DNA of 52,196 nucleotides. Origin: Candidatus Saganbacteria bacterium CG08_land_8_20_14_0_20_45_16. GTDB lineage: Bacteria; Margulisbacteria; WOR-1; O2-12-FULL-45-9. Numbering within the stretch: position 1 is the stretch's first letter; each line of letters opens with the position of its first letter. The notes under the pieces were generated by a model, which worked only from the letters and a program-made list of their open reading frames with translations, searched no databases and was not told the origin of the DNA. The stretch spans positions 1 through 52,196 of the forward strand of contig PEYM01000002.1 of assembly GCA_002774365.1 (NCBI GenBank), in the 5' to 3' direction. Made by a program: the position numbers and the translations under genes. Shown in pieces: positions 14,196 to 48,698 of the stretch.

Positions 14196-15824
14196 ATGGC
14201 AAAAAAGAAAACTCAAAACTCAAAATTCAAAACTCAAAAATTAAAATCTAAAATTCAAAAATCAAAACCATACGCGCTTCTTTCGGTTTCTGATAAATCA
14301 GGGCTGGATAAGTTTGCCAAAGGGTTAAAAGAGCTTGGGTTTGAAATTGTCTCTTCTGGCGGCACAGCGGATTTTTTGACCAAAGCCAAAATTAAAGTTA
14401 CTAAGGTCCAAAAGTTGACCAAGTATCCTCACATGCTGGATGGCCGGGTCAAAACCTTGCACCCAGTGATTCATGGCGCGATTTTAGCTGATCAAACAAA
14501 CCCTAAGCACTTAAAAGAACTGGCAAAATACAAGATCAATCCTTTTCGGATTGTGGTCTGCAACCTTTATCCATTTGAAAAAGTGATCTCAAAAGCAGAT
14601 TTTACCCATGAAGAGGCCATTGAAAATATTGATATTGGTGGGCCCTGCATGGTGCGGGCCGCGGCCAAAAACCACAAGAGCGTGGCGATTATTGTTGACC
14701 CTGCTGATTACAGCTTGGTCTTAGATGAGCTGAAAAATAATCAAGGGAAAATCCCGCCAGGGATGCGAGAGAGCTTGGCTAAAAAGGCTTTTGAGTACAC
14801 TCGCTATTATGATTCCGTGATCGTTAAGTACCTCTACTCGCGCGGGGTGGCAGAAGAAACCTTGCCTGCTCAGGTTGAGCTCCAACTGGAAAAGATCCAG
14901 GACTTAAGATACGGCGAGAACCCGCATCAAAAAGCCGCGCTTTACCGCGAGGTTAAGATTGGTTCGTGGGCAATGGGCTCGCAAGTTACCCGGGCCAAAC
15001 AGCTTGGGGGCAAAGAGCTCTCTTTTAATAATTACGTGGATATGGACGCTGCCTGGTCAGCGGCTAATGCTTTTGCTGACCCTACGATTGCTATTATTAA
15101 GCATACCAATCCTTGTGGTCTGGCTAGTGATGAGAGTTTGGTCGAAGCTTATAAAAAAGCCTATGCTGGTGATCCGGTCTCAGCCTTTGGCGGCATTGTG
15201 GCAGCCAACCGCCGCATTGATGAGGAGACCGCGATTGAGATCGCAAAACTTTTTGTCGAGGTGGTTATTGCTCCTGGCTATACTCCCAAGGCGCTTATGG
15301 TCCTTAAGGGGAAGAACAATTTGCGGATTATGGAGATGGGGGAGGGCTCGATCAATAAGCCTTTTACTGGTCTAGACATAAAACGGATCAGCGGTGGGCT
15401 GCTCTTGCAAGAGCCAGACCTAGCTCAGCTTGGGCTGGGCGAGATCAAGGTGGTCACAACAAAAGAGCCGACCTTAGAGCAGATGGAAGACCTTTTCTTT
15501 GCCTGGAACGTGGCCAAGTATGTTAAATCAAATACCATTGTTATTGCTAATAACAAGCAAGCAATTGGGATTGGCGCGGGTCAAATGAGCCGGATCGAGG
15601 CGGCTGGCCTAGCGATCCAGCGTTCGCGCACCGCGGTGAAGGGTGCGGTGCTGGCCTCTGATGCTTTCTTCCCATTTCCTGATGTTGTGGAATTTGCTGG
15701 CAAGCATGGCATTAGCGCTATTATTCAACCGGGTGGCTCCAAAAAAGATCAGGACTCAATTGATAAGGCTAATGAACTGGGGATTGCCATGGTCTTTACT
15801 GGCCGTAGGCATTTTAGACATTAA
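14196..15824 (+). CDS. purH: bifunctional AICAR transformylase / IMP cyclohydrolase
   Basis: This enzyme carries out the last two steps of IMP synthesis. The 542-aa protein has an N-terminal cyclohydrolase domain (ALLSVSDKSGLDKFAKGL, SSGGTADFL, MLDGRVKTLHPVIHGAIL, CNLYPFEKV) and a C-terminal transformylase domain with the Lys-His pair in IAIIKHTNPCG and the family C-terminus (RRHFRH). A ribosome-binding site (AAGAGGT) precedes ATG 14196. Residues 5-25 are a lysine/glutamine/serine-rich leader encoded by nine degenerate heptamers and are not part of the conserved fold. It should belong with purF/M/N but is separated by 3 kb of accessory genes. Confidence 0.95.
   Translation: MAKKKTQNSKFKTQKLKSKIQKSKPYALLSVSDKSGLDKFAKGLKELGFEIVSSGGTADFLTKAKIKVTKVQKLTKYPHMLDGRVKTLHPVIHGAILADQTNPKHLKELAKYKINPFRIVVCNLYPFEKVISKADFTHEEAIENIDIGGPCMVRAAAKNHKSVAIIVDPADYSLVLDELKNNQGKIPPGMRESLAKKAFEYTRYYDSVIVKYLYSRGVAEETLPAQVELQLEKIQDLRYGENPHQKAALYREVKIGSWAMGSQVTRAKQLGGKELSFNNYVDMDAAWSAANAFADPTIAIIKHTNPCGLASDESLVEAYKKAYAGDPVSAFGGIVAANRRIDEETAIEIAKLFVEVVIAPGYTPKALMVLKGKNNLRIMEMGEGSINKPFTGLDIKRISGGLLLQEPDLAQLGLGEIKVVTTKEPTLEQMEDLFFAWNVAKYVKSNTIVIANNKQAIGIGAGQMSRIEAAGLAIQRSRTAVKGAVLASDAFFPFPDVVEFAGKHGISAIIQPGGSKKDQDSIDKANELGIAMVFTGRRHFRH
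14208..14270 (+). repeat. heptanucleotide array (9 units) inside purH
   Basis: Nine consecutive 7-mers of the type AAAACTC/AAAATTC fill exactly 63 bp, i.e. 21 codons (residues 5-25). The frame is kept because 9 x 7 is divisible by 3. Confidence 0.85.
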
Positions 15825-18960: not shown

Positions 18961-19758
18961 TTAAAACTGGCAGCTTAAAATCCGATCATGACCACTTAGG
19001 TCTTTAATTATGTTTATTCTATTGTATTTTTTTGTTCCTTCAGCTAGTTTCCTGACCGCTTCTCCTTGGTTATAGCCTATTTCTATGAGTAAGTAGTGTG
19101 GTAGTGCCGTAGTACCGTAGTACGGGGCTTGGGTGATTAGTCTTTTGATATAAGTAAGCCCATCTGGCCCGCCGTCAAGGGCAGGGTGTGGTTCAAAATC
19201 TTTAACATCAGGCTCAAGCTTTGCTATTTCAGATGTTGGGATATAGGGCGGGTTAGAGACGATCAGATCAAACTTTTTCGTTAAGCCAGTTAGCAAATCT
19301 CCTTGCTTAAATTCACAGCGATCCTGAACCTGGTGAAATTCTGCGTTCCTTTGAGAGATCTTAAGGGCTTTGGCTGAAGAATCAATTCCAATTACCTGAA
19401 CATTTGGTAAATATTTGGCTAGGCTGACTGCGATACAGCCAGAGCCAGTGCCGATATCCGCAATTCGATATTCGATATTCGATAGCCGTAATAATTTTAT
19501 TGTTGCCTCAACTAGCAGCTCTGTCTCTGGGCGGGGGATGAGGACGTTTTGGCCAATATAGAACTCTAGTCCCATAAAGGGTTGGTTCTTGACCAAGTAG
19601 GCAATTGGTTCATGGTTTAAGCGACGCTTGATCAGTTCGTTGTAATGCTTTTGTTCGCTTGGGGTTAATGCTCTTTTCGGATGACTAAAAAGTTTGGCGC
19701 GCTCGATCTTTAAAACATGGCAGAGGATGACCTCTTTTTCAAATTGGGGAACAACCAT
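18961..19758 (-). CDS. prmC: peptide chain release factor N5-glutamine methyltransferase
   Basis: This enzyme methylates the Gln of the GGQ motif of release factors. The 265-aa protein has the helical N-terminal domain (LIKRRLNHEPIAYLV), the SAM-binding IADIGTGSGCIAVSLA, and the catalytic NPPY in LIVSNPPYIP. The start codon overlaps the stop of prfA by 1 nt (TAATG), so enzyme and substrate are translationally coupled, a common arrangement. Two tandem arrays lie in the frame: three exact heptamers encode the linker before the SAM motif (residues about 92-98), and four octamers encode a loop near residues 212-222. Confidence 0.95.
   Translation of the reverse strand: MVVPQFEKEVILCHVLKIERAKLFSHPKRALTPSEQKHYNELIKRRLNHEPIAYLVKNQPFMGLEFYIGQNVLIPRPETELLVEATIKLLRLSNIEYRIADIGTGSGCIAVSLAKYLPNVQVIGIDSSAKALKISQRNAEFHQVQDRCEFKQGDLLTGLTKKFDLIVSNPPYIPTSEIAKLEPDVKDFEPHPALDGGPDGLTYIKRLITQAPYYGTTALPHYLLIEIGYNQGEAVRKLAEGTKKYNRINIIKDLSGHDRILSCQF
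19093..19124 (-). repeat. octanucleotide array (4 units) inside prmC
   Basis: On the plus strand: GTAGTGTG, GTAGTGCC, GTAGTACC, GTAGTACG, 32 bp with an 8-bp period, within the C-terminal part of the methyltransferase domain. Confidence 0.7.
19464..19484 (-). repeat. heptanucleotide array (3 exact units) inside prmC
   Basis: Three identical TTCGATA units on the plus strand, 21 bp or 7 codons (LSNIEYR region), sit in the linker just before the SAM-binding motif. Confidence 0.8.
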
Positions 19759-45866: not shown

Positions 45867-48698
45867 ATGGAGTATAAAAAGACTTTAAACCTGCCGCAAA
45901 CCGACTTTCCTATCCGGGCTAAACTAGCTGAAATCGAAGCGGAAATGACAGCTTTTTGGGCCAAGCAAGATGTTTATCATCAAATGGGGAAGAGATTCGA
46001 CCTTCGAAATTCGAAAGCCGATAGTCGTTATATTCTCCATGATGGCCCACCATATCCCAACGGAGATATTCACCTGGGCCACGCGCTCAACAAAATCCTC
46101 AAAGATATAATTGTTAAGTATAAATCTATGCAAGGGTTTTATGCTCCTTATGTTCCTGGTTGGGACTGCCACGGTTTACCCATTGAAACTCAGTTGATTA
46201 AAGACTTAGGTGAGGACGAGAGAAATAAATTTCGAGAGCCTGCTCACAAAGTTGAATTTCGGAAAAGATGCAAAGAGTACGCCCTAAAATATGTTGATTT
46301 GCAAAGGACGGAATTTAAGCGCTTGGGGATTTTTGGCGAATGGGACAAGCCGTATTTAACAATTAATTATGAATATGAAGCTAAAATTATTGAGCTTTTC
46401 GGGGTCTTAGCTGAAAAGGGTTATATCTATCGCGGGTTAAAGCCAATCCATTGGTGTCCGCATTGTGAGACAGCTTTAGCCGAGGCTGAGATTGAGTATG
46501 AGGATGATAAGTCGCCGTCGATTTTTGTCAGATTTAAGGTTTCAAGGGACCAGGGTACCAAGGGATCAAAGGACTGGATGCCTCGAAACCTTGATCCCTC
46601 GATGCCTCTTTCTTTAGTGATTTGGACCACAACACCATGGACCTTGCCGGCTAATGTGGCGATTGCTGCTCATCCGGAATATGAATATGTTTTTTTAAAA
46701 TCCGAAATCCTAAATCCTAAATCCGAACAAGGAGAGGTATATATTATTGCCGAGGGGTTGGTTGAGGAGTTTGTTAAGAAATTAGAGCTTAAGGAATATA
46801 AAATTATTGGCAAGATGTCAGGAAAAAATCTTGAAGGGGTCAAATACCAGCACCCCTTTATTGAGCGCGAAGGTCAGGTGGTACTTGATACTTATGTCAC
46901 GCTAGAACAGGGGACAGGCTTGGTCCACATTGCGCCAGGACATGGGATGGAAGACTACGGGGTCGGCTTAAAATACAAGCTTCCAATTGTGATGCCGGTT
47001 AATGCCATGGGGCATTTTGACAGCTCGGTCCCAGATTTTATCCAGGGGAAATTTTATGCTGGCGCTAATAAAATCATTACTGAAAAAATGCAGCAAGATG
47101 GCTCGCTTTTAAAGCTTGAATTCATGAAGCATTCATACCCACATTGCTGGCGTTGCAAAAAACCAGTGATCTTCCGCGCGACCGAGCAGTGGTTTGTTTC
47201 AGTGGACCATAATAATATGCGTGGAGAAGCGCTCAAGGCTATTGGTCACACTAAGTGGTTTCCGGCCTGGGGGGAGAACAGAATTCGTGGGATGGTTGAA
47301 GGTCGGCCTGACTGGTGTATTTCGCGTCAGCGCAGTTGGGGGGTGCCGATCCCTGTTTTCTATTGCCAAAAATGCCAGAAACCACACATGACTGGTGAGT
47401 TTAATCAGGCAATTATTAAATTAGTTAAAGAACACGGGACTAATGGTTGGTTTGCCAAAGAGGTCAAAGATATCTTGCCGGCCAATCTTAAATGCGATTG
47501 CGGCGGCACTGAATTTACCAAAGAAACAGATATTCTTGATGTCTGGTTTGAGTCTGGTTCGTCTCATGCGGCCGTGCTGGAGCAAAGAGCCGATCTTAGC
47601 TGGCCAGCTGATCTATATCTTGAAGGCTCTGACCAACATCGTGGCTGGTTTCAAACTTCGCTCTTGCTTGGTATTGGTTATAAAGGCAAGGCCCCATTTA
47701 AGGCGGTCTTAACCCACGGGTTTACAGTTGATGATAAGGGCAAGAAAATGAGCAAGTCTTTGGGCAATGTGATTTCGCCTCAGGAAGTTGTTAAGGAGTA
47801 TGGGGCGGATATTTTGCGGCTGTGGGTTGCCTCGACTGATTTCCGCAATGATATGGCGGCCTCGCAAAATATCTTAAAACAAGTGCGCGAGGCGTATCTT
47901 AAGATTCGTAATACTTGTCGGTTTCTTTTGAGTAATTTGGGGGATTTTAATTGCGAGCCACGAGCCACGAGCCACGAGTTACTAGAGATCGACAGATGGA
48001 TCTTGTTAAAGCTTAATCGTTTGATTGAGCTGGTAACTAAGGCTTATGATAGCTTTGAATTTCATGTTGTCTATCACTCGCTCTATGATTTTTGTGTTAA
48101 TGACTTGTCAGCTTTTTATCTAGATATGTCTAAAGACAGGCTTTATTGCGATGCTAAGGATGCGGTCTCTCGCACGTCTGCGCAATTTGCCATGCGAGAA
48201 ATCCTGATGGCGTTGATTAAGTTGATGTCGCCGGTACTTTCGTTTACAGCTGAGGATATTTATAAGTATGTAACCAGTAACCAGTTACCTGTAACCAGTG
48301 TGTTTTTGCTTGATTTTCCAAAAGTTGACAAGAAGTACCTTGATGAGCAGCTAGAGGCAAAGTGGGAAAAGATTTTAAAGCTAAGGGAAGAGGTTTATCA
48401 ATTAATTGAAAAGAAGCGGGCGGCCAAGGAAATTTCTGCTTCAGTTGAGGCTTTGGTTGAAATTGGGACAGAGGGCCGAGAGTGGCTAAAAGAGGTTGAG
48501 GCATTTTTGCCTATGGTCTTGATTGTTTCTCAGGTCAAACTTGTGGCAGGCAAGCAAATTGTGGTCAAACATGCTGATGGAAAAAAATGCGTTCGCTGTT
48601 GGCTCTGGAGTGAAACAGTTGGCCAAAACTCTAGTCACCCTGAGCTGTGTCAAAGATGTGCTAAGGTGGTCATGACTAAATTCGGGGATCAAGTATAG
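45867..48698 (+). CDS. ileS: isoleucyl-tRNA synthetase
   Basis: This enzyme charges tRNA-Ile and edits Val. The 943-aa protein has MEYKKTLNLPQTDFPIRAKL at the N-terminus, the HIGH motif as HLGH at residues 69-72, the CP1 editing domain (WTTTPWTLPANVAI), KMSKS at 627-631, and a C-terminal zinc site (KCVRCW ... LCQRC). Length and order are normal. Five degenerate 7- or 8-bp arrays lie in the frame (near residues 44-55, 224-248, 277-286, 696-705 and 802-811), all in places where loops are expected. The editing and catalytic motifs are intact, so the enzyme should work. Confidence 0.97.
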   Translation: MEYKKTLNLPQTDFPIRAKLAEIEAEMTAFWAKQDVYHQMGKRFDLRNSKADSRYILHDGPPYPNGDIHLGHALNKILKDIIVKYKSMQGFYAPYVPGWDCHGLPIETQLIKDLGEDERNKFREPAHKVEFRKRCKEYALKYVDLQRTEFKRLGIFGEWDKPYLTINYEYEAKIIELFGVLAEKGYIYRGLKPIHWCPHCETALAEAEIEYEDDKSPSIFVRFKVSRDQGTKGSKDWMPRNLDPSMPLSLVIWTTTPWTLPANVAIAAHPEYEYVFLKSEILNPKSEQGEVYIIAEGLVEEFVKKLELKEYKIIGKMSGKNLEGVKYQHPFIEREGQVVLDTYVTLEQGTGLVHIAPGHGMEDYGVGLKYKLPIVMPVNAMGHFDSSVPDFIQGKFYAGANKIITEKMQQDGSLLKLEFMKHSYPHCWRCKKPVIFRATEQWFVSVDHNNMRGEALKAIGHTKWFPAWGENRIRGMVEGRPDWCISRQRSWGVPIPVFYCQKCQKPHMTGEFNQAIIKLVKEHGTNGWFAKEVKDILPANLKCDCGGTEFTKETDILDVWFESGSSHAAVLEQRADLSWPADLYLEGSDQHRGWFQTSLLLGIGYKGKAPFKAVLTHGFTVDDKGKKMSKSLGNVISPQEVVKEYGADILRLWVASTDFRNDMAASQNILKQVREAYLKIRNTCRFLLSNLGDFNCEPRATSHELLEIDRWILLKLNRLIELVTKAYDSFEFHVVYHSLYDFCVNDLSAFYLDMSKDRLYCDAKDAVSRTSAQFAMREILMALIKLMSPVLSFTAEDIYKYVTSNQLPVTSVFLLDFPKVDKKYLDEQLEAKWEKILKLREEVYQLIEKKRAAKEISASVEALVEIGTEGREWLKEVEAFLPMVLIVSQVKLVAGKQIVVKHADGKKCVRCWLWSETVGQNSSHPELCQRCAKVVMTKFGDQV
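45996..46030 (+). repeat. heptanucleotide array 1 in ileS
   Basis: TTCGACC, TTCGAAA, TTCGAAA, GCCGATA, GTCGTTA: five units, 35 bp, just before the HIGH motif (residues about 44-55). Confidence 0.75.
46538..46609 (+). repeat. octanucleotide array 2 in ileS (9 units, 24 codons)
   Basis: Nine 8-bp units (GGTTTCAA, GGGACCAG, GGTACCAA, GGGATCAA, AGGACTGG, then ATGCCTCG, AAACCTTG, ATCCCTCG, ATGCCTCT), 72 bp or exactly 24 codons, at the entry of the editing domain. The two halves are partly inverted copies and could fold as a hairpin. Confidence 0.75.
46697..46731 (+). repeat. heptanucleotide array 3 in ileS
   Basis: AAAATCC, GAAATCC, TAAATCC, TAAATCC, GAACAAG; 7-bp phase within the editing domain (SEILNPKSEQG). 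Confidence 0.75.
47954..47981 (+). repeat. heptanucleotide array 4 in ileS
   Basis: CGAGCCA three times then CGAGTTA, 28 bp, in the linker between the catalytic core and the anticodon domain (CEPRATSHELL). Confidence 0.85.
48270..48297 (+). repeat. heptanucleotide array 5 in ileS
   Basis: GTAACCA, GTAACCA, GTTACCT, GTAACCA, 28 bp, in the anticodon-domain loop (VTSNQLPVTSV). Confidence 0.85.

Follow-up and report, generated by a model that had tools for sequence, protein, structure and literature searches.

The five tandem repeat arrays in the ileS gene of a Candidatus Saganbacteria genome are best read not as five inserts but as belonging to families of heptamers, less often octamers, that occur genome-wide and were written over permissive loops and kept uniform, a reading to which we give a probability of roughly one half. 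Such families would recurrently overwrite, at the DNA level, the same weakly constrained loops of essential genes, and the array copies would be homogenised in place. Writing in place is favoured because arrays are found at the same positions in different genomes with differing units, a common register and a near-fixed loop length, because they show stop escapes, and because unlinked genes have units in common. For each of insertion, slippage and vertical drift in their simple forms, at least one test gives a poor fit.

Genomes and sampling

The host is an uncultured relative of cyanobacteria. The window, i.e. the whole stretch of 52,196 bases that was analysed, is contig C7 of its genome (G000; 1.78 Mb, 95% complete). 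The relatives are Candidatus Saganbacteria/WOR-1/Margulisiibacteriota MAGs that differ at the species level. The class comprises 31 genomes, every one of which was searched, and the closest pairs differ by 14–18% in IleRS. Four genes (ileS, polA, trmD and prmC), all picked for having arrays in G000, were aligned. The genome-wide sample comprised 479 kb from G000 together with stretches from 17 relatives (about 1.2 Mb). Outside the aligned genes, ORFs in this sample were those given automatically by a simple ORF caller.

The ileS gene and its arrays

The initial annotation of this DNA had described five arrays within a 943-codon ileS gene; their coordinates and sequences were correct on re-reading, and the gene product matches the family model (Table 1). 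The chance level for ileS was taken from 300 codon shuffles, in which the best lag-7 score reached 9.0 at the 99th percentile and did not exceed 10.5. A3, A4 and A5, with scores of 18.0, 18 and 13.0, respectively, are far above chance, and A1 alone (10.5) is borderline, near the chance limit. For A2, the lag-8 identity is 0.62, as compared with a codon-shuffle maximum of 0.44, and the two halves are complementary above chance (46 matches in ungapped matching versus 36 at the 99th percentile). The description of A2 as octamers with inverted halves thus holds for the whole tract, whereas the halves taken singly score just 7.5–8.0.

Table 1. Positions in the window of ileS, its arrays and conserved motifs, and of the prmC arrays.
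Feature	Coordinates	Strand	Basis
ileS, isoleucine–tRNA ligase, 943 aa	45867..48698	+	TIGR00392, 990 bits
A1: degenerate heptamers (ATTCGAA), codons ~43–55, before HIGH	45996..46030	+	
A2: octamer tract, AAGGGATC then complement GATCCCTC, codons ~225–249	46534..46612	+	
A3: heptamers AAATCCG/AAATCCT, codons 278–287, beta hairpin tip	46698..46727	+	
A4: CGAGCCA, 3.6 perfect copies, codons 696–704	47954..47978	+	
A5: GTAACCA x4	48270..48299	+	
HLGH (HIGH motif), array-free	46071..46082	+	sequence; invariant/near-invariant columns
KMSKS motif, array-free	47745..47759	+	sequence
C-terminal Cys cluster (C908, C911, C928, C931), array-free	48588..48659	+	invariant columns
prmC heptamer array, unit CGAATAT (coding strand), site ~residue 95	19463..19484	-	
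prmC array of octamers, site ~residue 217; three relatives also have octamers here	19093..19123	-	

In an AlphaFold model (mean pLDDT 84), all five arrays lie in connections between secondary-structure elements. A2 forms the loop between strands 209–225 and 248–254, and A4 the loop between helices 667–689 and 707–728; pLDDT falls below 50 at residues 229–235 (A2) and 284–287 (A3). On comparison with the solved IleRS structure 8c9e, gaps or poor matches coincide with the array regions, and the array-encoded residues are conserved neither there nor among the relatives. The expected placement in loops, the lack of conservation and the location outside HIGH, KMSKS and the zinc site were hence all confirmed, the coordinates of the two motifs and of the Cys cluster being untouched by any array.

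Heptamer arrays across the genome

The 479 kb of G000 contain 29 period-7 arrays, and an order-3 Markov control gave none. Further arrays were found at lag 14 (13) and lag 8 (6, versus 0 in the control), and other periods, multiples of 7 excepted, mostly gave 0–6. Tandem 7-base units are therefore over-represented relative to chance, as in repeats of the STRR/LSSR type, and they are also dispersed as recurring families. The array units are a restricted vocabulary: 99 arrays fall into 59 unit classes, as compared with 93 expected for random genomic heptamers.

Unlike the mainly intergenic STRR/LSSR heptamers, most arrays lie in ORFs. This applies to 37 of the 40 arrays of period 7 or 8 in G000, including those in prmC, polA, trmD and purH (the last named by sequence only), and to 103 of 129 sampled arrays (80%) from 18 genomes. 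As 94% of the DNA is coding, a preference of arrays for coding regions was ruled out; the array density per base is ~4 times higher outside ORFs in the sampled stretches with simple ORF calls.

A long heptamer-like array (AAAACTC) at positions 14208–14267 of the window encodes a basic N-terminal tail on a PurH-like protein. At locus L099, inverted intergenic arrays of the AAATGAC/GTCATTT type at 2311–2346 and 2391–2423, ~45 bases apart, may form a hairpin. The class member G010 (L131–L150) is array-poor, with 7.5 arrays per Mb as compared with 60 in G000, and offers a useful contrast. A reverse-transcriptase or telomerase-like repeat generator was ruled out by the absence of an RVT_1 match in the 95% complete G000; 9 of the 31 class genomes have such a match.

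Same sites with different units

The 30 Saganbacteria/Margulisbacteria IleRS genes carry 62 arrays of period 7 or 8, as compared with 1.2 expected from codon shuffles. These are located at six positions in the reference, residues ~45, ~117, ~227–238, ~282, ~699 and ~806, apart from a single outlier at 452. Elsewhere, 50 IleRS genes of other phyla have 4 arrays, versus 24 in 11 Margulisbacterial genes.

The units at one site mostly differ between genomes. At the position of A4 (~699), where G000 has CGAGCCA, ten relatives have different heptamers, among them AGACCGA (G008), CCCTACC (G017), CCCAGTC (G010 and G014), AGACCAC (G003), AGGGTCA (G013), CGCGGGT (G011) and CGATGGA (G009). Eight further array calls in seven relatives place heptamers or octamers of other sequence at the A1 position, and many relatives have AAATCCG-type heptamers at that of A2. 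In the other aligned genes, differing heptamers are present at polA ~829, trmD ~82 and prmC ~95 in 11–16 sequences each, and prmC ~217 has octamers only (4 of 4). Different motifs thus occupy one site in related genomes, as in the P6b region of Nostoc trnL (see below).

These data do not support the earlier interpretation of the ileS arrays as five independent insertions, given that arrays recur at the same positions throughout the class and their units are mostly different ones. The load of repeats in ileS, which had been considered striking, is indeed far above chance; it is not peculiar to this gene, polA, trmD and prmC being affected alike.

Units shared between loci of one genome

Of the same-genome pairs of units from different sites, 14.1% match in at least six of seven bases; for pairs from different genomes, the share is 5.1%. 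The same-genome excess was reached by 0 of 400 permutations, in which base composition was uncontrolled, and it leans partly on G011. Identical units make up 4.6% of pairs within a genome and 1.9% of pairs between genomes, as compared with 0.08% for random heptamers. Among 27 unit matches, 10 are in opposite orientation relative to the coding strand. Shared units in opposite coding orientations encode different peptides, which ruled out selection for a particular peptide.

In G011, GTCGCGG-type units are found at two sites in ileS, in trmD, in prmC and, reversed, in polA. In G000, further contigs carry the A3 unit, which is present at two sites of the valS contig C140; the A5 unit is found on contigs C16 and C54, and A2-related octamers on contigs C19 and C60. 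A 21-base search found the A4 unit nowhere in G000 besides ileS. The two AAATCCG-type arrays of C140 (1461–1488 and 2118–2145) share the contig with a valyl-tRNA synthetase-like gene, and ileS may not be the sole affected synthetase in G000.

The rewriting would proceed by templated copying, whether through slippage of a strand followed by its return, through template switching or through short-patch conversion by another array. Selection would remove events that shift the frame, alter the loop length or create stops. Tentatively, a non-insertional copying process may act genome-wide, spreading heptamers from locus to locus in both orientations and overwriting loop codons at constant length and in the local register, so that, within one genome, whole sets of unrelated proteins would have the same loops changed together. 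No donor event or intermediate of array copying was seen among the arrays compared, which come from species-level MAGs.

Register of the arrays

Neighbouring copies within one array have a lag-7 identity of 0.85–0.90. Between genomes, arrays at the same site agree at 0.38–0.74 in register and at 0.19–0.27 out of register; at ileS699, the in-register agreement is no better than the best shifted value. Over most of the range, in-register similarity is flat with respect to divergence (Spearman 0.04, p 0.59), and this lack of correlation ruled out neutral drift over time. The register is therefore fixed, through descent or through conserved codons at the flanks, whereas the unit sequence turns over. 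Since similarity is flat, a register set by flanking codons, with repeated independent origin of arrays there, is a possible case.

Stop codons and the reading frame

As 7 is not a multiple of 3, each array is read in all three frames. A stop-bearing unit is present in 22 of 93 coding arrays (0.24), as compared with 0.28 of random heptamers. All 24 would-be in-frame stops are altered, with 1.04 changed bases each on average versus 0.19 per three bases in the rest of the same arrays. For example, A5 consists of GTAACCA, GTAACCA, GTTACCT and GTAACCA; only the third unit would frame TAA, and it reads TTA. The absence of in-frame stops is forced by the open frame. What is informative is that units with a stop are nearly as frequent as in random DNA and that the remainder of the array is uniform. 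A perfect array of a stop-bearing unit could not enter an essential gene whole.

Within an essential gene, the gain or loss of one unit by a heptamer array entails a frameshift, a point that the initial annotation had missed. Single-unit slippage is excluded in essential genes, because every 7-base step shifts the frame; steps of 21 bases are possible. Phase-variable switching of copy number by single units is implausible in these genes.

Loop length with and without arrays

In G000, the net length of the A1–A5 loops over the array-free median is +5, +2, +8, 0 and +3 amino acids, respectively, the A2 loop having 37 residues versus a median of 35. Only A3 thus resembles a clean insertion of its own size. 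Loops of both 33 and 35 residues occur at polA829 with and without arrays, and the polA array of G000 aligns to Taq polymerase without gaps. Array-bearing loops mostly have 28 residues versus 29 at trmD82, mostly 36 versus 35 at ileS230, and 21–22 versus 19 at prmC217. The exception is ileS282, where loops have 25–26 residues with an array and 17 without in genomes of the window's family; arrays at ileS45 also lengthen the loop. Thus, DNA of a set length added to an empty site, as in RPE and MITE elements, was found at ileS282 and not at polA829, trmD82, ileS230 or ileS699, where lengths overlap or are equal. Most array DNA is therefore not added DNA. A constant length could also result from insertion and deletion under selection.

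Palindromes in the same loops

A palindrome of ~21 bases, CCTGCCTGCCGGCAGGCAGG, often lies within heptamer arrays, as in ileS of G001 (L167), trmD of G015 (L233), prmC of G006 (L259), G001 (L276) and G015 (L264), and others. In the cases read, palindromes of this type are clean, in frame and without target duplication. Omitting the palindrome on paper restored the array register for 9 of 24 elements, as compared with 1 of 150 random positions. Palindromic inserts of the form CTCCCCCTT...AAGGGGGAG occur in the same loops in ileS (L018, L026 and L011) and trmD (L252). At ileS ~699, two genomes of one genus have CCCAGTC heptamers (G010) and a GGAAACC...GGTTCC palindrome (G012), respectively (L012/L015).

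Alternative explanations

Ready-made arrays might have been inserted independently and en bloc, and have persisted only in the few surface loops that tolerate them, as the initial annotation supposed. The location of arrays in loops, the added residues at A3 and A1, the occurrence of common units across loci in both orientations, and the palindromic elements that share sites such as ileS699 with heptamers would all agree with such events. They are nevertheless rather unlikely as the general origin of the arrays: polA829, trmD82 and A4 of G000 show no added length, the register is common between genomes, and the stop-bearing arrays have point escapes, their perfect versions being barred from essential genes.

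Less probable is vertical inheritance of a single ancestral array at each site, the unit of which drifted under homogenisation by plain concerted evolution and with no exchange between loci. The common register and similar loop lengths would follow directly from descent, close relatives sometimes share units (0.97 for polA of G024/G026; 0.92 for G010/G012), and ileS282 heptamer arrays are confined to the window's family. However, similarity does not drop with divergence, units are often wholly swapped between fairly close genomes (0.22 for trmD of G005/G009; 0.28 for ileS699 of G003/G014), and the same units turn up in unlinked genes within a genome.

For heptamers, the literature suggests polymerase slippage in which an offset of 7 bases is preferred. 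Growth of each array in situ from flanking codons by such slippage would explain the dominance of period 7 genome-wide, the register tied to conserved edge codons (S-K/R-V in trmD; K-L-I or Q-M-I in polA) and the similarity of the prmC217 octamers to the local P-N-H-L codons. It is quite improbable for these genes, as any single 7-base step is a frameshift, unit diversity is far below that of random local heptamers (59 distinct units among 99 arrays versus 93 expected) and loci within a genome have units in common.

Chance periodicity, codon bias or assembly error, to which A1 by itself comes near, is rejected for the array set by the shuffle and Markov controls and by the recurrence of arrays, mostly with intact frames, in genomes assembled independently of one another.

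Relation to known repeats

To our knowledge, reports of a heptamer excess in bacterial genomes go back to 2007, and no mechanism has been proven. No published work on tandem repeats in Saganbacteria was found in the literature.

The nearest precedent is the P6b stem-loop of the Nostoc tRNA-Leu(UAA) intron, which has Class I or Class II heptanucleotides and for which replacement of the whole region has been inferred (PMC4476775). Both systems have seven-base motifs at a fixed structural site, one class repeatedly replacing another. However, P6b is one RNA stem-loop whose copies pair, whereas the arrays described here occupy many protein-coding loops, with a reading frame, stop escapes and near-fixed length at several sites.

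The nearest general kind is that of heptamer-rich genomes and cyanobacterial STRRs, with which the arrays share a dominant 7-base unit, dispersed families, and variation of sequence and length at the same loci. Examples are GGGAATC in Xanthomonas and GGGGA(T/C)T in Nostoc (PMC4692102) and TAACTGA in Beggiatoaceae and cyanobacteria (PMC4679880). The Nostoc GGGGACT unit belongs to the same class as the CCCAGTC arrays in G000. In those genomes, arrays were reported mainly from intergenic regions, with one or few unit types per genome (PMC4692102, PMC4679880); here, the sampled arrays lie mostly in ORFs, including essential genes, and have dozens of unit types.

Rickettsia palindromic elements, inserts of ~150 bases encoding a conserved peptide, lie in frame in unrelated ORFs (reviewed in PMC10969869). 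The present arrays are likewise tolerated in frame within unrelated genes, but consist of tandem 7–8-base units of variable sequence and add no length at several sites.

Implications

Essential genes act as a trap that keeps frame and length, so that one site can be followed through 30 genomes. This trap speaks against single-unit slippage and allows insertion, in-place rewriting and exchange between loci to be told apart. The rewriting proposed here would, from the DNA level, alter protein loops rapidly and in a coordinated way, and it calls for caution with alignments and trees built on array-bearing genes. Overwriting would thus represent a little-studied route by which repeats spread through essential genes.
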